DNA of 64,000 nt, from assembly GCF_029910535.1 (NCBI RefSeq), contig NZ_CP069362.1:434001-498000 (forward strand), in the 5' to 3' direction. Origin of the DNA: Marinitoga aeolica (GTDB lineage: Bacteria; Thermotogota; Thermotogae; Petrotogales; Petrotogaceae). Positions 22,656 through 36,638 of the stretch are shown here, piece after piece; the first letter of the stretch is position 1; each line of letters opens with the position of its first letter. Under the pieces are notes generated by a model. That model had not been told where the DNA came from, did no database searches, and saw only the letters and a program-made list of their open reading frames with translations. Both the position numbers and the translations under genes were made by a program.

Positions 22656-22712
22656 AATTTACATAACTACCTTTTTTGTTACGTTTGAAAATTCACAATT
22701 AATATTCAAGTA

Positions 22713-22741
22713 TTGAAAAGTAACATTTATTTTTGTATACT
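22713..22741 (+). promoter_or_regulatory. Promoter of the C-rich small RNA
   Basis: TTGAAA (22713-22718), spacer of exactly 17 bases, TATACT (22736-22741). Each hexamer has five of six consensus bases. A start near 22748 gives a transcript of about 77 bases ending at the terminator at 22824. No ribosome binding site or frame follows. Confidence 0.7.
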
Positions 22742-22747
22742 ATTGTT

Positions 22748-22824
22748 GTAAAAAGAAAATCCCCCTATCCCCCCCTGAAATAGATGGATAGACATTTAGC
22801 GGATCCGTTGGATCCGTTTTTTTT
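22748..22824 (+). ncRNA. Candidate C-rich trans-acting small RNA
   Basis: A promoter and a strong terminator about 80 bases apart enclose a non-coding stretch. It has two C-runs (22761-22765 and 22769-22775). The first is predicted single stranded. The second begins in the stem CTATCC/GGATAG (22765-22770 with 22786-22791) and leads into its loop. A second hairpin with a U8 tail is the terminator. C-rich single-stranded segments are the known hallmark of small RNAs that block Shine-Dalgarno sequences in Gram-positive bacteria. Perfect matches exist to ribosome binding sites in this window (glgD nine bases, glgC eight, ndk and rpsS seven). The next gene has its own promoter, which argues against a plain leader attenuator. 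Confidence 0.6.
22800..22824 (+). terminator. Terminator of the small RNA
   Basis: CGGATCC-GTT-GGATCCG is a perfect seven-base-pair stem with a three-base loop, followed directly by eight T. This is a textbook Rho-independent terminator and would also stop read-through from the RND operon. Confidence 0.88.
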
Positions 22825-22829
22825 ATTTG

Positions 22830-22838
22830 TGTTATAAT
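22830..22838 (+). promoter_or_regulatory. Extended -10 promoter of the histidine-kinase look-alike
   Basis: TGTTATAAT (22830-22838) is a TGn-TATAAT element six bases after the small-RNA terminator. Transcription would begin near 22845 and the GAGGTGA ribosome binding site follows. There is no good -35 box, because that place is taken by the terminator stem. Confidence 0.5.
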
Positions 22839-22876: not shown

Positions 22877-24598
22877 ATGAAAAATTCATTCAAACAACTT
22901 ATGCTTATTTATTTATTCATTGTATTGTCTTTCATTTCATTAATCTTCCTGATAAAAATAGACATTGATAATTATGAACAAAAAAATTTGAAAAATTATC
23001 TAAAAAATACAATATTTCAATTGGATGAAAAAGTAAAGAAAAATATCGAGCATTATATAAATTATCAGAAGTTTACATTTAAGCCATTTAAGTTAGCCAT
23101 ATATCAAAACGATAAGATTATATATTCTGATTTTAAGAATATTAATGATAATAATTTCTTCTATAGTGAAATTGAAATAAAAAATAAGAAATATATTTAT
23201 ACCTATAGTCTACTTGAATATATTGATTATCTTAATTTAATTTCAAATAGTAATATAATTTTAAAATACAATAATAAATTATTTTTTAAAAACAATTTTT
23301 ATACAAATTCCTCTGATTCTATTAAATCAGCAATTCAAATCTTTATCCCCTATAAAAAAATGTTGTTTTATATTGTTCCAGATAAAAATTTAAATATATT
23401 ATTTATGGATAAATTATCTTTATATATTATTGTTAATTCTATACTATTTTTTATTCTATTTCTGATTTTGAAAAAAAATTATTTTTATTCTATAAAAGAT
23501 CTTAATTTAATATTAAATTCTATTAATGGAAATAATAAAAAGAATATTAAATTAAATACAGATATTGGTATTTCTTTAAAAGAAAAAATAGACAATATAA
23601 TTAACACCTTAAAAAACAAAGAAAATAAAATTTCCGAATTAAAAATTCATATTAAACAAATAGAAAATAAGAATAATTCTTTGATAAATGATCTTATTTT
23701 TTCCATTAATACCCCTATTCAAAATCTTATTAATTCTTTAAATATAAAGCTATCAAAGGATATAGAAAAAAGCTTAATAATAAAAAATATTTCTGAGATT
23801 AATTATTTAATGGAAGAATTTAAAAATGCTTTTTTCTTCAGCTCAGATAAATTTGTGCAAAATTGTTTTGAGTTTTTTGATATAAATAAATTTCATAGTG
23901 AACTTGTTTACTTTTTATCTTTTTATCTTAGTAAAAAAACAGTTAATATAAAGAAGCATATGAATATAAAAAACTCTATTGTTTTTTCGAATAAAGATAA
24001 ACTATATAAAGTATTATATAAAATACTAACGCTTATTCTTAAAGAAAAAGAAAGCGGAAATATTATTATCTCTTACTCTTTAATAAAAAGCGGCGTATTA
24101 GAAGTTAAGATAATTGACAAAGATAATATTTTTAATGATTATATCTTATTATTAAACAAACAAATTCCCCTGGACAAAACAGATATAAAATTATATGATA
24201 TTATGTTAATTAAGAAATATATAAAAGATTTAAAAGGAATTATATTTTTGAACCAAAATGATTCTGATTTAATCATTAAAATTGAAATTTCCGTGGATTA
24301 TATAGACTTTATAAAGAATTATGATCTTAATAATCTTAAAAATTTATACTTAACAAAATTAATTGAAAGCGAATATACAGTAAGTCAAGCAAATAAATAT
24401 ATTAAAGAAATAATTGCTTTATCTATTGACGTATTAAATAATTTTAACCCTGATAAAATAAATATATTAAAGAATTATCTGATTAAAAATGATTTCCATA
24501 TATTTTATAATTGGATAAATTTTATAATAGAATATAAAGATGATTCAAATGTTGCTGTTTTCAAAAATCTATTAATAGAAAAATTAAGGAGCTTATAA
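22877..24598 (+). CDS. Membrane histidine-kinase look-alike lacking catalytic residues
   Basis: The 573-residue protein has the layout of a sensor kinase: membrane helix 1 (about 8-27), an external domain of about 150 residues, helix 2 (about 180-199), a coiled coil (about 235-275), a DHp-like helix pair and an ATPase-like fold (about 330-472). Aligning FSINTP (275-280) with the usual HELRTP puts Phe275 at the phosphorylated His. The N box is replaced by YKILTLILK, and the G1 DxGxG by DKDNIF. The place of GLGLxIVK reads IKLYDIMLIKK. It cannot be a normal kinase if this alignment holds. A C-terminal helical domain (473-573) is unrecognised. No response regulator is adjacent. It could be a sensor scaffold or partner for another kinase. 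Confidence 0.65.
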   Translation: MKNSFKQLMLIYLFIVLSFISLIFLIKIDIDNYEQKNLKNYLKNTIFQLDEKVKKNIEHYINYQKFTFKPFKLAIYQNDKIIYSDFKNINDNNFFYSEIEIKNKKYIYTYSLLEYIDYLNLISNSNIILKYNNKLFFKNNFYTNSSDSIKSAIQIFIPYKKMLFYIVPDKNLNILFMDKLSLYIIVNSILFFILFLILKKNYFYSIKDLNLILNSINGNNKKNIKLNTDIGISLKEKIDNIINTLKNKENKISELKIHIKQIENKNNSLINDLIFSINTPIQNLINSLNIKLSKDIEKSLIIKNISEINYLMEEFKNAFFFSSDKFVQNCFEFFDINKFHSELVYFLSFYLSKKTVNIKKHMNIKNSIVFSNKDKLYKVLYKILTLILKEKESGNIIISYSLIKSGVLEVKIIDKDNIFNDYILLLNKQIPLDKTDIKLYDIMLIKKYIKDLKGIIFLNQNDSDLIIKIEISVDYIDFIKNYDLNNLKNLYLTKLIESEYTVSQANKYIKEIIALSIDVLNNFNPDKINILKNYLIKNDFHIFYNWINFIIEYKDDSNVAVFKNLLIEKLRSL

Positions 24599-30070: not shown

Positions 30071-30334
30071 TTATTCCTCCTGAATAATAACCCCTTCTAT
30101 ATTATCATCAAAGGTAATTTTTATCAATGTTGCTGAATTAGTATTATAAATAATCTCCTCACTATAATTTTTATTATACAAACTATTTTCTATTTTATTT
30201 ATTTCTTCCAGATCTTTCTTAAATACATTTTTTCTATATATTGCATTTATATATAGATAATTTATCATAACTAAGTTAAATACAATACCTATAATTATTA
30301 AAGAAATTATTAAAATTAGGGAATGTATATTCAT
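30071..30334 (-). CDS. Small single-span membrane protein, unknown
   Basis: Unrecognised 87-residue protein with one N-terminal membrane helix (LILIISLIIIGIVFNLVMINY) and a charged tail of about 55 residues. The start is the ATG at 30334, seven bases after AGGAG, overlapping the previous stop as TAATG. A TTG six codons upstream is less likely. The exact overlap with the tail-anchored protein suggests that the two are made together and may interact in the membrane. Confidence 0.6.
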   Translation of the reverse strand: MNIHSLILIISLIIIGIVFNLVMINYLYINAIYRKNVFKKDLEEINKIENSLYNKNYSEEIIYNTNSATLIKITFDDNIEGVIIQEE

Positions 30335-31362
30335 TAAAATACTCCTAACCAAATTCCCAATAAGATTGCTCCTATTATTAATCCTATAGATAATCCAAAA
30401 ATAATTAATATATCACTACTTTTTACTTTATTTTCTGGAAGATTTGCCTCTCTTTTTAATCCTGCAATAGAATCTTTTAATATATCCCCTATTATTTTAT
30501 CTTCCGGAGGATTAAAATATTCTTCTCTTTTCCTATGCATTTCTTCTATTTTATTGGAATCTACCATCATTTTTAAATTTTTTGATATAACAGCTTTGCC
30601 TATAATACCACTTCCAAGATCCATTTTTATAAAATAATAATCAGTTCCAGGAATTAACTCTTTAGCTATTAATTTAGATTCTATTGGTAAAAGATTTTTC
30701 CCACTTTCATCAAATTTATCTGGATAAAGTTCTTTTAATCTATTTAAATTTGCGGGCTCTACTGGATCTATAATCAATGAATAAACCGGATCTCCAACAT
30801 CAAGATTATTTATAGTCATACCATTTAATGGATCTGAAAGGGGTAATACTTCAGGAGAGGATAATACGTCAACCCTATTTAGATAAGATTTTTCTTTTTC
30901 ACTAAAACTTCTATTTTGCGTCATCAACCATACTAAATCCTGATAAGTTAATTTTTCCGCAACTATTCTTAAATTAACTTCTCCTTCCCATTCCTCAAAG
31001 ATTTCAGATAATATAGCTTTTATTATAGCCACATCTGAGTCCCTTACGCCTAAAAACATTTTTGCATTTATTATTTCAGCACCATAACGTTTTATAGTAG
31101 ATTGAACAAAAGCTAAAAATTGTTTATTTAAATCTAATACAGTCGAATCTTTTATAGCTGTATAATATAATTCTTCTAATTTAGATTTATATTCAATATA
31201 AGACAAATTTATATCTGGTAATTCAAATTTTGGGAGTTTTGATTTAGGTATAGATAAAACTTTATATTCAGGAGTTCCTTTTTGTTTTCCAAACATGTAA
31301 CCTACTATTACTTCAGCTGTTAATGAAGATGTTGCAAAAAACTTCACAGCATAAAAATCCAT
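30334..31362 (-). CDS. Tail-anchored protein of unknown function
   Basis: I do not recognise a known domain in this 342-residue protein. It is mainly soluble and rich in charged residues, with a single C-terminal membrane helix (about residues 320-341: ILIIFGLSIGLIIGAILLGI). It has no signal peptide, so the bulk should lie in the cytoplasm, fixed to the membrane by its end. The middle contains SDPLNGMTINNLDVGDPVYS and GTDYYFIKMDLGSG, which look like beta-rich modules. It may be a lineage-specific family. Gene position is between glgC and the radical SAM/rnf genes, coupled to a small membrane protein. Confidence 0.6.
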   Translation of the reverse strand: MDFYAVKFFATSSLTAEVIVGYMFGKQKGTPEYKVLSIPKSKLPKFELPDINLSYIEYKSKLEELYYTAIKDSTVLDLNKQFLAFVQSTIKRYGAEIINAKMFLGVRDSDVAIIKAILSEIFEEWEGEVNLRIVAEKLTYQDLVWLMTQNRSFSEKEKSYLNRVDVLSSPEVLPLSDPLNGMTINNLDVGDPVYSLIIDPVEPANLNRLKELYPDKFDESGKNLLPIESKLIAKELIPGTDYYFIKMDLGSGIIGKAVISKNLKMMVDSNKIEEMHRKREEYFNPPEDKIIGDILKDSIAGLKREANLPENKVKSSDILIIFGLSIGLIIGAILLGIWLGVF

Positions 31363-31374
31363 TGTTCCGCCTCC

Positions 31375-32619
31375 CTAAATTATATACCCTCCAGAAGGTA
31401 TATCACCTGTAAACTCTCTTATATAATTTCCTATAATGACATTTTTCCCAATATTTATATTTGACGGAATTTTCACATTAAATCCTATTAAAGTTATCTC
31501 AGTATTATAAACCTTTTTATTAAACTCGTTTTCTTTAAATTCCCCTACTCCTATTTTTACATTTTCACCAATTTCAGTATTTTCACAAATTATAGCTTTA
31601 TCAATATATGTTCCTTTTCTTATTACTGCCTTATTCATTATTACTGAATCTTTAATAATCGCTCCTTCTTCCACAACTACGCCCTGAAACAATACAGAGT
31701 TATAGACTTCCCCATATATTTCACAACCTTCACTAATTAAAGACCCGGATAAATTTGCTTCTTTTGATATAAAGGCTGGCGGTAATTCTTCTGATTGGGT
31801 ATATATTTTCCAATTTACATCATGTATATTTAACATAGGCATTGGACCTAATAACTCAAGATTAGACTCCCAATAAGATTGTAATGTCCCAACATCTCTC
31901 CAATATCCTTCATAATTAAATGCATATAATTTATTTTTATTCTCTAACATTTTTGGAATAATATTCTTTCCAAAATCATGTTCAGAATTAGGATCTCTCG
32001 AATCTTCAATCAATAATTTTTTTAAAATTGGCCATGTGTATACATAAATACCCAAAGAAGCCAGGTTCCCTCTCGGTTCTGAAGGTTTTTCCTGAAATTC
32101 CATTATTTCACCAAAAGAATCTGTAACCATAATACCAAACCTATATGCTTCGCTTATTGGCACTTCCATACAGGCTATAGTAGCGTCTGCACCTTTTTCT
32201 ATATGATAATCTATCATTTCATTATAATCCATTTTATATATATGATCACCAGACAATATTACAACAAAATCCGGATCATAACTATCAATATATTCTATAT
32301 TTTGATAAATAGCATCTGCTGTTCCTTTATACCACGATTGATCGGTATTGCTTACATATGGAGGTAGAATAGTTAATCCTCCAGATTTTATATCAAGATC
32401 CCATGGTTTACCTATACCAAGATGTTTATTTAATACATGTGGTCTATACTGAGTTAAGACTCCTACATTATATATTCCTGAATTAACACAATTACTCAAA
32501 GCAAAATCTATTATTCTGTACTTACCGCCATACGGAACTGCCGGTTTTGCAAGATATTCAGTAATAGCTCCAAGTCTGGTTCCCTGACCGCCTGCTAATA
32601 TTAAAGCTACAACATTCAT
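31375..32619 (-). CDS. glgC: Glucose-1-phosphate adenylyltransferase, catalytic subunit
   Basis: GlgC makes ADP-glucose from glucose-1-phosphate and ATP, the committed step of glycogen synthesis. The 414-residue protein has the nucleotide loop GGQGTRL (10-16), the conserved [19 protein letters not shown] and [11 protein letters not shown] blocks, and a C-terminal left-handed beta-helix with hexapeptide repeats. The start is the second ATG (MNVVAL), six bases after a GGGGGG site; the first ATG touches that site. Upstream glgD ends 11 bases away. Its very G-rich ribosome binding site is a candidate target of the C-rich small RNA. Confidence 0.95.
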
Positions 32620-32630
32620 TTTCATCCCCC

Positions 32631-33743
32631 CTATATAATCGTGCCTTTTTCTACTACTAATATTTTATCTTCACCTATAACTTTTTTCCCTTCTCTAATT
32701 TTACAATCTTTATCTATAACAGCATTTTTTATAACACTTCCTTCAGATATAATAGTATCCTGTAATATTATCGAATTTTCAACAATAGCCCCTGCTTTTA
32801 TTCTTACACCTCTGGAAACTATAGAATTTTTTACAGTTCCATTTATTATCGTACCATCAGCAACAAATGCATTTTGAATATTCGCATTAATATTAATTTT
32901 AGGTGGCGCATAATCTTTTAATTTAGTATATATTTTGTTTGAATAAAATAATTCTTTTCTTACTTCATCTTTAAGAATATCCATATTTGTATTGTAATAT
33001 GCTTTTATTGATTTTTTTATGTTTGACCAATACCCATCAAAATTATATGAAAAAACTCTTAATTTTTTCAAATTAGGCTGTATAATATCACTTACAATGT
33101 CTTTGCCACCATTAGGTATTGATGTATATAGTAATTCTATTAATAATGCTTTGTTTATAAAATATACTCCCAATGATATCCTATTAGATATTGTTTCCGT
33201 TGGTTTTTCATGAAATTCTAAAATTCTTCCATTTTCATCTGTCACTACCTGACCATATGTATTAATAAGTTCGTCATTAGTACACTCTTTGGTTAAAATA
33301 GTAATATCTGCAGCATTTAACAAATGATAATGATATAATTTTGTAAAATCAAAATTATATATATGATCTCCTGATCCAATTAAAACAAAATCTTCATCGC
33401 CTCTTCTTAACAATGTCATATTTTGAAATATTGCATCAGCAGTTCCTTTATAAACAGGTATTTCTTCTTTATTTTTAAAATATGGCTGCAATATAAATAA
33501 TCCACCTGTTTTTCTGTCCAGATCCCATTCTTTACCACTTCCAAGATGATCCATTAAACTTCTTGGATAATACTGAGTTAGTACTCCTACTTTTTTTATT
33601 TTAGAATTCACAAAATTACTCAATGTAAAATCTATAGCCCTGTATTTACCAAAAATAGGTACTGCTGCACTTGCTCTTTTCTTGGTTAACTCTTTAATAC
33701 CGCTTGTAGATGAACCAGCTAAAATTAAACCTAAAACTTTCAT
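32631..33743 (-). CDS. glgD: Glucose-1-phosphate adenylyltransferase, GlgD regulatory subunit
   Basis: The 370-residue protein is a GlgC homologue in which the catalytic loop GGxGTRL is replaced by [11 protein letters not shown], as is typical for GlgD, the non-catalytic partner known from Firmicutes and Thermotogae. [22 protein letters not shown] and [10 protein letters not shown] keep the fold. The C-terminal beta-helix is shorter than in GlgC. In known systems GlgC/GlgD heterotetramers have altered control and higher activity. The ATG lies behind AAGGGGGATTGATAA, which lies within the end of the preceding gene. Confidence 0.92.
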
Positions 33744-33747
33744 TTTA

Positions 33748-34398
33748 TCAATCCCCCTTAAGAGTCAAAAGAAATTCTTTTTCAAGTTGAAACAATTTAT
33801 CCTTATCTTTATCAGATATTTCAGGATACAAATAAGTATAATCTTTTCCAAAAATTTTTAAAAATTTAGCTAAAATATTTTTTTTAAATTTCGGATATTC
33901 GAATAATATTCTTATATTTTTCAACATTTTTTCATATGCATATTTATAACTAATTCCTTTCACACCAAATTCCTTCTCCAACATCAAATCAAAGTTTTTT
34001 GATATCTTTTCTATATTATTTACTTTTAATATTTTCCACCATTTATTTTCAATAAAATGTGTCCCTAAAAAGCGTAAGGACAAAATCTCATCAAAATTAT
34101 ATTCAAATTTGGTGTGTAATATAGACTCAGAATAATAAGAATTAATTATATGATGTAATTTTTCATCTAATTCCATGTGAGAAATAAACCCATAATAAAA
34201 ATTCTCAGGAAAATTTTTCATTAATTCCCTATAATCATCTGAATTTAATTTATGCAGTTCATCACCTATTCTCTTATATTTCCCTTCATTTGCATAAAAA
34301 AATACATCTGGCCCCTGTGCCCCTAAATATAATTCAGGACCCCATATTTTTTGTGAATATTTCATAGAATATAGTATATGAGCCAATATACTGGGCAT
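33748..34398 (-). CDS. Zinc-dependent phospholipase C-like protein
   Basis: The 216-residue protein begins MPSILAHILYSM and has LGAQGPDVFFYA, then GDELHK and ISHMELDEKLHHII. This set of His and Asp residues in this order matches the zinc-dependent phospholipase C family (Zn_dep_PLPC-like domain) found in many bacteria. No signal peptide is visible, unlike secreted clostridial enzymes, so it probably acts inside the cell and its substrate is unknown. It lies between the RNA methyltransferase and glgD; its end contains the ribosome binding site of glgD. Confidence 0.65.
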   Translation of the reverse strand: MPSILAHILYSMKYSQKIWGPELYLGAQGPDVFFYANEGKYKRIGDELHKLNSDDYRELMKNFPENFYYGFISHMELDEKLHHIINSYYSESILHTKFEYNFDEILSLRFLGTHFIENKWWKILKVNNIEKISKNFDLMLEKEFGVKGISYKYAYEKMLKNIRILFEYPKFKKNILAKFLKIFGKDYTYLYPEISDKDKDKLFQLEKEFLLTLKGD

Positions 34399-34402
34399 CT
34401 TC

Positions 34403-35569
34403 TCACCTCAGAACTCTTATCCATAAACATTTTAAATACAAACTTTCTGGTATTTGAATTATCCAGGGGTGGTCGTTTGATTGAGTAATAATATCAATAT
34501 TTTGTAACCTGATACCTTGATTTTCAACGCTCCTTCTTAATGATTCAATTAATAATGATATATCTGCTTGATAGGCGCAACTACATAAACTTAAAATTCC
34601 ATAATCTTTTAATCTTTTTATTCCCAGTTCTGATATTTTTTTAAAAATTTGAACACCTTTAAATCTCTCTGTTTTCTTTTTTATTAATGATGGAGGATCT
34701 AACATCATCAAATTAAAAGTTTCTTTTGTTTCTAAAAGAAAATGTTCGACATCATCAAATATTATTTCTATTTTATCTTCTATATGATTTATTTTTGCGT
34801 TTTCTTTCAATAACTCAAGGGCATACTCATCTTTATCTACCGCAATGACTTTTTTTGCACCATATTTTGCCATATTTAATGCAAATCCACCAGTATATGA
34901 ATAAGCATCTAAACCTATTGAATCTTTAGAAAACTGCCTTATATAAACTCTATTTTTCCTTTGATCAAAGAAAAAACCCGTTTTTTGACCATTTTTTATA
35001 TCAACTACATATTTTATTCCTTCCTCTTCAATAATAAAATTATCAGGTGGATTTTCTCCCCATAGCAATCCAACATTTCTCTCAAGATTTTCTTTTGATG
35101 TAGTTTCAAAATCACTTCTTTCATAAATACCTTTTATTTCTTTATTAAATACTTTCAATAATGCACTTATTATTTCATTTTTCTTATTTTCTACTCCTTT
35201 ATTTCGAAATTGAATAACCAAAAAATTTTCATATTTATCTATAATTAATCCCGGGACACCATCAGCTTCTGCGTGAAAAAAACGATATGAATTTCCAAAT
35301 CCCTTTCTTAAATTCAAAGATTTTATAAATTTTTTATAAAAAAATCCTTCATTTATTTCTTCATCACTCAAAGATAGAACTTTTACAGAAATATTTGATG
35401 ATTTTGAAAATATGCCTTTACCTAGAAATTCAAAATTATAGGAAAATACATTACAAATTTCACCATCTTTTTTTTCTCCGGTGATTTCTGCAATTTCATC
35501 TTTAAATATCCATAAATATCCATTTTTTATTTTTTTTTCCTTACCTTTTTTTAATTTTATAATTATCAT
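34403..35569 (-). CDS. Class I SAM-dependent rRNA methyltransferase (RlmI-like)
   Basis: The 388-residue protein has an N-terminal PUA-like domain (KLKKGKEKKIKNGYLWIFKDEI), a middle domain and a C-terminal Rossmann methyltransferase. Motifs include NGQKTGFFFDQRKNR, GLDAYSYTGGFALNMAKYGA for SAM binding, LMMLDPPSL and LCSCAYQ. This pattern is that of RlmI, which makes 5-methylcytosine at position 1962 of 23S rRNA in E. coli. The substrate position in this organism is inferred from family only. It overlaps the end of ndk by four bases. Confidence 0.88.
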   Translation of the reverse strand: MIIIKLKKGKEKKIKNGYLWIFKDEIAEITGEKKDGEICNVFSYNFEFLGKGIFSKSSNISVKVLSLSDEEINEGFFYKKFIKSLNLRKGFGNSYRFFHAEADGVPGLIIDKYENFLVIQFRNKGVENKKNEIISALLKVFNKEIKGIYERSDFETTSKENLERNVGLLWGENPPDNFIIEEEGIKYVVDIKNGQKTGFFFDQRKNRVYIRQFSKDSIGLDAYSYTGGFALNMAKYGAKKVIAVDKDEYALELLKENAKINHIEDKIEIIFDDVEHFLLETKETFNLMMLDPPSLIKKKTERFKGVQIFKKISELGIKRLKDYGILSLCSCAYQADISLLIESLRRSVENQGIRLQNIDIITQSNDHPWIIQIPESLYLKCLWIRVLR

Positions 35570-36009
35570 AAGTCGTGTTGCACATCCAATTTATAATTTA
35601 ATATTTCATCTTCACTAAAGAATATTTTCATCTCTTTTTCGGCATTTTCATGAGAATCTGAAGCATGCACTATATTTTTTGTTACACTCATTCCAAATTC
35701 ACCACGTATACTACCCGGAGAAGCTTTTAAAGGATCTGTATTGCCTATAATATGTCTTACCATTTCGACTACTCTTGGCCCTTCCAAAACCATCACAACT
35801 ACAGGACCTGATAACACAAATTCTATTAATTCATTATAAAATGGTTTTCCTTCGTGTTCTTTATATAGCCTTTCTGCCTGTTCTTTTGTAGCGTTTATCA
35901 TTTTCATTGCAATAATTTTTATACCTCTTCTTTCCAATCTACTTATTACTTCCCCTACTAATCCTCTTCTTACAGTATTTGGTTTTAAAAACAAAAATTC
36001 TCTTTCCAT
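35566..36009 (-). CDS. ndk: Nucleoside diphosphate kinase
   Basis: Ndk balances nucleoside triphosphate pools by phosphate transfer through a His intermediate. The 147-residue protein has the active-site block NIVHASDS with His115, the N-terminal EREFLFLKPNTVRRGLVGE with a substrate-binding Lys, and RGEFG. Length is normal. It overlaps the ABC ATPase stop by one base and the methyltransferase start by four bases. Its ribosome binding site (AAAGGGGGAA) is one of the G-rich sites in the window. Confidence 0.97.
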   Translation of the reverse strand: MEREFLFLKPNTVRRGLVGEVISRLERRGIKIIAMKMINATKEQAERLYKEHEGKPFYNELIEFVLSGPVVVMVLEGPRVVEMVRHIIGNTDPLKASPGSIRGEFGMSVTKNIVHASDSHENAEKEMKIFFSEDEILNYKLDVQHDL

Positions 36010-36638
36010 TAGAATTCCCCCTTTACTAATCCGTCTTCTAATAAGATTTTTTTATCACAAAAATCTATTAATTCTTTTTCATGTGAAACCACAACTATTG
36101 TTTTATTATATTGAATAAGATCCTTAAATAACTTAAATACAATTATTTTGTTTTCCATATCAAGGCTGCCTGTCGGCTCATCTGCAAGAATAAGTTTTAT
36201 ATTTCCAACTACTGCTCTTAATATACTCGCACGCTGCTTTTCTCCTCCAGATAACTCTCCAGGATATTTATCCATTATTTTACTTATTCCTAATATTTCT
36301 GCAAACTCTCTTATTTCTTTTAAATTTTCTTCTCCTTCTCTAATATATTGAGCTAATTTTGCATTTTCTAAAATTGTTAGTTCATTTATTAAATTAAAAA
36401 ACTGAAATACAAAGCCTATATGTTTTTTTATATCTTTATTAAAAGCATACATGATCTTTCCCGACGATGGTTTTAATATTTTTCCCATTAAAAAAAGCAA
36501 TGTGCTTTTCCCACTTCCAGAATGGCCATATATCCCATAATATTTATTTCTTTCTATTTTTAAATTTATGTTTTTTAAAACATTTGTTTTTCTATCGTAA
36601 GAAAAATATAAATTTTCTATTTCAATTAAACTATTCAT
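36009..36638 (-). CDS. ABC transporter ATP-binding protein (LolD/MacB type)
   Basis: The 209-residue protein has Walker A GHSGSGKST, the Q-loop FVFQFF, signature LSGGEKQR, Walker B LILADEPTGSLD and a switch His in VVVSHE. This is the short ATPase type that works with FtsX-domain permeases such as LolCDE or MacB. Here the preceding gene encodes exactly such a permease, overlapping by eight bases. Together they are expected to move lipoproteins, peptides or other envelope substrates rather than import solutes. Confidence 0.92.
   Translation of the reverse strand: MNSLIEIENLYFSYDRKTNVLKNINLKIERNKYYGIYGHSGSGKSTLLFLMGKILKPSSGKIMYAFNKDIKKHIGFVFQFFNLINELTILENAKLAQYIREGEENLKEIREFAEILGISKIMDKYPGELSGGEKQRASILRAVVGNIKLILADEPTGSLDMENKIIVFKLFKDLIQYNKTIVVVSHEKELIDFCDKKILLEDGLVKGEF

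Follow-up and report, generated by a model that had tools for sequence, protein, structure and literature searches.

A probable trans-acting, C-rich small RNA conserved across Thermotogota, with hfq as candidate target

The RNA gene in Marinitoga

The window that was analyzed, a stretch of 64,000 nucleotides of the Marinitoga aeolica genome, contains a putative small-RNA gene on its forward strand, located between two co-oriented genes. A promoter sequence (22713-22741; TTGAAA at 22713-22718, a 17-bp spacer, and TATACT at 22736-22741) precedes a predicted transcript of about 77 nt (22748-22824) with putative ends. This segment comprises a first run of five C residues (seed 1, 22761-22765) that is kept across most of the phylum, a conserved core (22766-22782) in which UAU and AUA enclose a second run of seven C residues (seed 2, 22769-22775), a Marinitoga-specific hairpin (22765-22791; CTATCC at 22765-22770, GGATAG at 22786-22791), and an intrinsic terminator (22800-22824) that consists of CGGATCC-GTT-GGATCCG (22800-22816) and eight T residues (22817-22824). 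The TGTGTTATAAT of the next gene ends at 22838. An earlier note, made from this sequence alone, had listed the promoter, both C-runs, the hairpin, the terminator, and this TGTGTTATAAT, and all of them were found where it had placed them. The downstream gene itself (22877-24598) evolves fast within the genus and is without a Pfam match; a TATAAT promoter element directly 3' of the RNA terminator is kept in most species of the genus.

Taken by itself, the sequence of the locus provided modest evidence for an RNA gene. The terminator was the sole one detected in the 6 kb around the gene, and the RNA segment folded better than shuffled sequences (z = -3.0). Promoter hexamers were rejected as stand-alone evidence, since their matches in 6 kb were not above chance (46 found versus 52 expected). 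No conserved open reading frame was found in the RNA segment, where an ATG at 22784 is due solely to Marinitoga-specific sequence. What raises the RNA gene far above chance, as judged from sequence comparison, is its conservation.

All seven Marinitoga genomes contained the gene, with 90-98% identity to a 141-base query. In their alignment the promoter, the C-rich body of ~77 nt, and the terminator were near-invariant; differences within the body were a C6 instead of C7 (one genome), an A before the terminator stem (one genome), and the terminator loop. By comparison, the RND protein encoded upstream had 70-87% identity in those five other species whose gene is intact. In one genome (G002), the RNA segment was 98% identical although the upstream RND gene was broken by stops; the stops and frame changes in that gene (G002:C17:95115-97464) are perhaps sequencing errors. 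A second, diverged copy of the RNA, with core ACCCCUAUCCUCCUUAAAAUA, was present on the reverse strand of the M. aeolica genome (G000:C1:2189808-2189890) and likewise in all seven genomes of the genus. An OmpH/Skp-like gene and an ABC ATPase gene lie divergent to this copy, which contains the exact anti-Shine-Dalgarno sequence CCUCCUU.

Distribution, genomic independence, and conserved elements

A covariance model of the seven Marinitoga sequences yielded matches in other Petrotogaceae genera as well as the second Marinitoga copy, and a combined model was then run on 103 Thermotogota genomes from 38 genera. The combined model, which includes some of the matched sequences, found the RNA in 100 of the 103 genomes and all 38 genera at E ≤ 0.5, and in 95 of the 103 at E ≤ 1e-4. 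The latter value was adopted as cut-off because a laxer genus-level search showed that matches above about 1e-3 were mostly noise. Upon inspection, the same core was seen in the matches from families f2, f4, f5, f6, f7, and f11, which are absent from the model. Many genomes contained at least two copies. One homologue, in G090, was located at C1:934662-934748 on the reverse strand. When the exact core pattern was searched over 84,980 species, 14 contigs were retrieved, from Marinitoga, Thermosipho, Fervidobacterium, Thermotoga, Pseudothermotoga, and other Thermotogota, the one exception being a metagenome-assembled genome labelled Bacillota (Bin_63). As the RNA sequence of the latter equals a Petrotogaceae form, contamination or misnaming is the most likely explanation. 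By these comparisons, the RNA is a real, independent sRNA family that spans the phylum, with one to several copies per genome.

Neighboring genes were surveyed by reading of translations (INDEPENDENCE). They varied by genus, while the RNA with its promoter and terminator stayed. Its neighbors are an MMPL/RND gene (Pfam) and the gene that the earlier note had called kinase-like in Marinitoga, a PHP-type hydrolase gene in Petrotoga and relatives, genes for a chemoreceptor and a radical-SAM protein in g4 and g7, a convergent mnmE-like gene in f9, a divergent PiT transporter gene in f10, and other genes again at further RNA loci. This exchange of flanking genes between genera, with the RNA kept, indicates that the RNA is an independent gene. 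The position between two co-oriented genes in Marinitoga would suit either alternative raised in the earlier note, a fragment of the RND operon's 3' UTR or an attenuator for the gene downstream, but with promoter, core, and terminator persisting beside other flanks, some of them convergent or divergent, both are ruled out as general explanations and their probability is negligible. Its main claim, a free-standing RNA with its own promoter and terminator, was borne out in that both elements are kept independently of the neighbors.

Across the phylum, the core can be written as (A)CCCC(C)-UAU-CCCCC(C)-U(U)-[GA]A[GA]-AUA and is, in Thermotogales, often followed by a third C-run, ACCCCCCAC. The earlier note had made its reading depend on conservation of the C-runs in close relatives; they proved to be the most conserved part of the RNA throughout the phylum. 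The compensating stem changes that it had proposed to look for were seen in the terminator, in which 5 of 7 stem pairs were changed on both sides across families. Its CTATCC/GGATAG hairpin is present as described, but limited to Marinitoga, the 3' arm being missing in other Petrotogaceae. Families f2 and f11 have analogous CUAUCC-CCCCUU-GGAUAG hairpins in their second RNA copies, and f8 has a near-variant. All 19 aligned sequences were identical in the UAU and AUA columns, which argues neither for nor against a small hairpin. Such a hairpin was rejected as a conserved structure: its UAU/AUA pairs never vary, which makes covariation untestable, and the flanking pair is mostly broken.

In the promoter, the TTG of the -35 and the TA..T of the -10 element were conserved in 19 aligned homologues. 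Most main copies have TTAAC-like boxes upstream of the -10 element, usually about 10-11 nt away, and in Petrotogaceae these boxes repeat at exactly 21 bp. At the M. aeolica locus, the probable activator site (22678-22724, forward strand) consists of GTTAC (22678), TTAAT (22699), and GTAAC (22720), with the same exact period. In the 21 family genomes searched, the strict triple array was found repeatedly, and mostly, at the RNA gene. A wider regulon defined by the 21-bp KTWAC array was considered and rejected, as the matches other than those at the RNA gene look scattered. The spacing of the boxes suggests the site of a dedicated activator, for which an OmpR/PhoB-type response regulator would be a suitable candidate.

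Predicted pairing with G-run ribosome-binding sites and candidate targets

Duplex energies were predicted at 37°C with an assumed 16S 3' end. For the Marinitoga RNA, the predicted duplex with a GGGGG site reached -16.7 kcal/mol, as opposed to -6.6 kcal/mol with a canonical AAGGAGG site. At GGGGG sites, binding by the main RNAs was predicted to be roughly equal or slightly superior to that by the 16S anti-Shine-Dalgarno, whereas their binding to AAGGAGG sites was far worse. For the Marinitoga paralogue with CCUCCUU, binding of AAGGAGGAU was predicted to be about as good as by the anti-Shine-Dalgarno. The mechanism that fits best is one in which the C-runs would pair with G-run Shine-Dalgarno sequences, with GGGGG favored over GGAGG. 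A point against this reading is that ribosomes, by way of a G-U pair, can also bind G-run sites.

The gene hfq was noticed from one appearance in a target list and then traced into other genomes, as the sole gene family so traced. Hfq is encoded in 98 of the 103 Thermotogota genomes. Forty hfq start regions from ten families, all Thermotogota, were surveyed, of which 39 could be parsed automatically. Comparison of these 39 demonstrated that G-runs are the rule at hfq: 35 had a ribosome-binding site with at least five consecutive G residues (G5-G7) and four had G4; the fortieth (G024, family f5) reads GGAGGAG, without a G-run. In a Thermotogota background set of 479 genes, 24 had runs of at least five G residues, and the corresponding Fisher value (5e-34) ignores relatedness and overstates independence, as hfq genes are homologous. 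For the same reason, the G-run at hfq is evidence for selection, and not 39 independent events. In each of the 28 genomes tested, the duplex between the sRNA and its cognate hfq had a better energy than composition-preserving shuffles had on average (mean z = -2.4), with about a quarter individually not below the 5% level. Two genomes (G097 and G098) without a detected sRNA nevertheless have G5 at hfq; with these and G024, the correlation between sRNA presence and G-run is imperfect. Among the genes examined, hfq is the best-supported candidate for a conserved target; since it is the only gene family that was surveyed phylum-wide, it may not be unique.

Several other genes have G-run sites. 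In the window, glgC and glgD (31375-33743, reverse strand), with the Shine-Dalgarno sequences AGGGGGG (G6) and AAGGGGGAT (G5), respectively, are possible additional targets. They lie in a reverse-strand region (30334-36638) in which several genes have a G5-G6 Shine-Dalgarno, including glgC, glgD, and the nucleoside-diphosphate kinase gene ndk. A site of the glgC/glgD type, AAGGGGGATTGATAAAATG, is the same in G002 and G005, and a GlgC/GlgD-like gene in family f6 is preceded by AAGGGGGAT. The latter site was also found at rubrerythrin genes in G000 and G004 and at stomatin-like genes in G004 and G045; among genes named from their translations, those for rubrerythrin, a stomatin-like protein, and folate cyclodeaminase came up again in two or three genomes. 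The divergent PiT gene of a Thermotoga-like genome has a G6 site. In g8 and G011 (loci L194, L220, and L204), a DUF4912/Rho_N-domain gene directly follows a further RNA copy. The ribosome-binding site of this gene has a G6-G7 run that is, in g8 (L194, L220), close to complementary to the sRNA core. The narrow pattern AAGGGGGAT-N1-8-ATG, with 1 to 24 matches per genome in the family, did not yield a target common to all.

These observations can be read as a broad regulon, in which the sRNA would block many G-run sites (rubrerythrin, glgCD, nucleoside-diphosphate kinase, and others) and hfq would be one target among many, a proposition on which we consider the evidence evenly divided. It differs from the explanation favored here solely in the place given to hfq. 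Many targets are typical of known C-rich sRNAs, and the G5-G6 sites of glgC, glgD, and ndk as well as the recurrence of AAGGGGGAT at rubrerythrin and stomatin-like genes are consistent with such a regulon. AGGGGG before a start codon occurs 202 times in the M. aeolica genome versus 61 times in the reversed control, an excess that is expected anyway for Shine-Dalgarno sequences. Against the broad reading, hfq was the most consistent G-run gene within the part of each genome that was examined.

A less probable alternative, which we regard as unlikely, is that the RNA acts as a protein-binding sponge and does not pair with mRNA; a C-binding KH or cold-shock protein, Hfq, or a factor that recognizes the 16S 3' end would be candidates. 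Conservation of UAU...AUA and of the C-runs as sequence would suit a protein site, and the core resembles the anti-Shine-Dalgarno region, of which the Marinitoga paralogue has an exact copy. However, a sponge leaves unexplained why matching G-runs occur at hfq ribosome-binding sites across the phylum.

The explanation that we favor, and consider fairly probable as a whole, is an independent trans-acting sRNA of ~77 nt that pairs with G-runs and has hfq as main candidate target. The RNA would be transcribed from its own promoter, probably with an activator bound at the TTAAC-like boxes, and would end at its own terminator. The single-stranded C-runs of the RNA may then pair, in the cell, with mRNAs that have GGGGG instead of GGAGG as Shine-Dalgarno sequence, which would block ribosome binding at these sites. 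With hfq as the most conserved target candidate, the sRNA would set the level of Hfq, the RNA chaperone of the phylum. Hfq may in turn bind the sRNA, since it occurs in nearly all genomes with the RNA, and a feedback loop would thereby be closed. The more specific proposal, that one ancestral trans-encoded sRNA controls Hfq synthesis by G-run pairing in a phylum-wide sRNA-Hfq loop, has in our view an even chance of being correct. Of the trans-acting repressor proposed in the earlier note, a free-standing, C-rich, and probably trans-acting sRNA thus stands as the best reading; its transcription and repressive action we infer.

Relation to known small RNAs

None of the families in Rfam 15 matched the window at the gathering threshold or eight of the RNA loci at E-values up to 1. 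No existing name or description of the RNA was found in Rfam or in the literature consulted. For a member of the phylum, Thermotoga maritima, an experimental list of 13 putative ncRNAs exists (PMC3636130), which may include the RNA. In a 2022 survey, Thermotogae were credited with a single distinct annotated sRNA (PMC9029176).

Because trans-encoded sRNAs tend to turn over fast, it is unusual to see one conserved in nearly all genomes of a phylum that branches deeply and is mostly thermophilic. The match between its C-runs and the G-runs at hfq suggests an old control loop of which no description was found. The link to hfq provides a testable hypothesis for how the Hfq level is set in Thermotogota, and a code of G-run versus GGAGG sites would offer a simple rule for target prediction.

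The closest parallels are the csRNAs of the CiaRH system and RsaE/RoxS of Firmicutes. Like the Thermotogota RNA, csRNAs are short, end in a terminator, are present within a genome in several related copies whose locations vary, and have an anti-Shine-Dalgarno stretch in an unpaired region (predicted in the present case). Their promoters have a direct-repeat CiaR box that precedes the -10 element by 10 nt (PMC3091779), a distance that is comparable to TTAACA-N10-TATAAT at the Thermotogota RNA. The csRNA box itself (TTTAAG-N5-TTTAAG) differs from the TTAAC-like boxes at 21-bp spacing. In addition, csRNAs usually contain an anti-AUG CAU and are known from streptococci, whereas the Thermotogota RNA has hfq as candidate target, and Rfam recognized no sequence relation between them. 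RsaE/RoxS acts on G-rich ribosome-binding sites through several C-rich motifs that are unpaired, the mode of action that predicted energies and hfq conservation favor for the Thermotogota RNA. A preference for GGGG over GGAGG, as predicted for the latter, has been reported for RsaE at lrgA, an AGGGGA site being bound and an AGGAGG site not (PMC6435200). RsaE/RoxS differs in structure, phylum, and candidate target, and no sRNA model of Rfam 15 matched the Thermotogota RNA. The latter most likely acts like csRNAs and RsaE, yet is a member of neither family. Small RNAs that lower Hfq synthesis have been described as Anti-hfq in Legionella (PMC5225317) and h2cR in Burkholderia (PMC3474761). Both are encoded in cis to their own hfq, whereas the Thermotogota RNA is encoded elsewhere and would act in trans.
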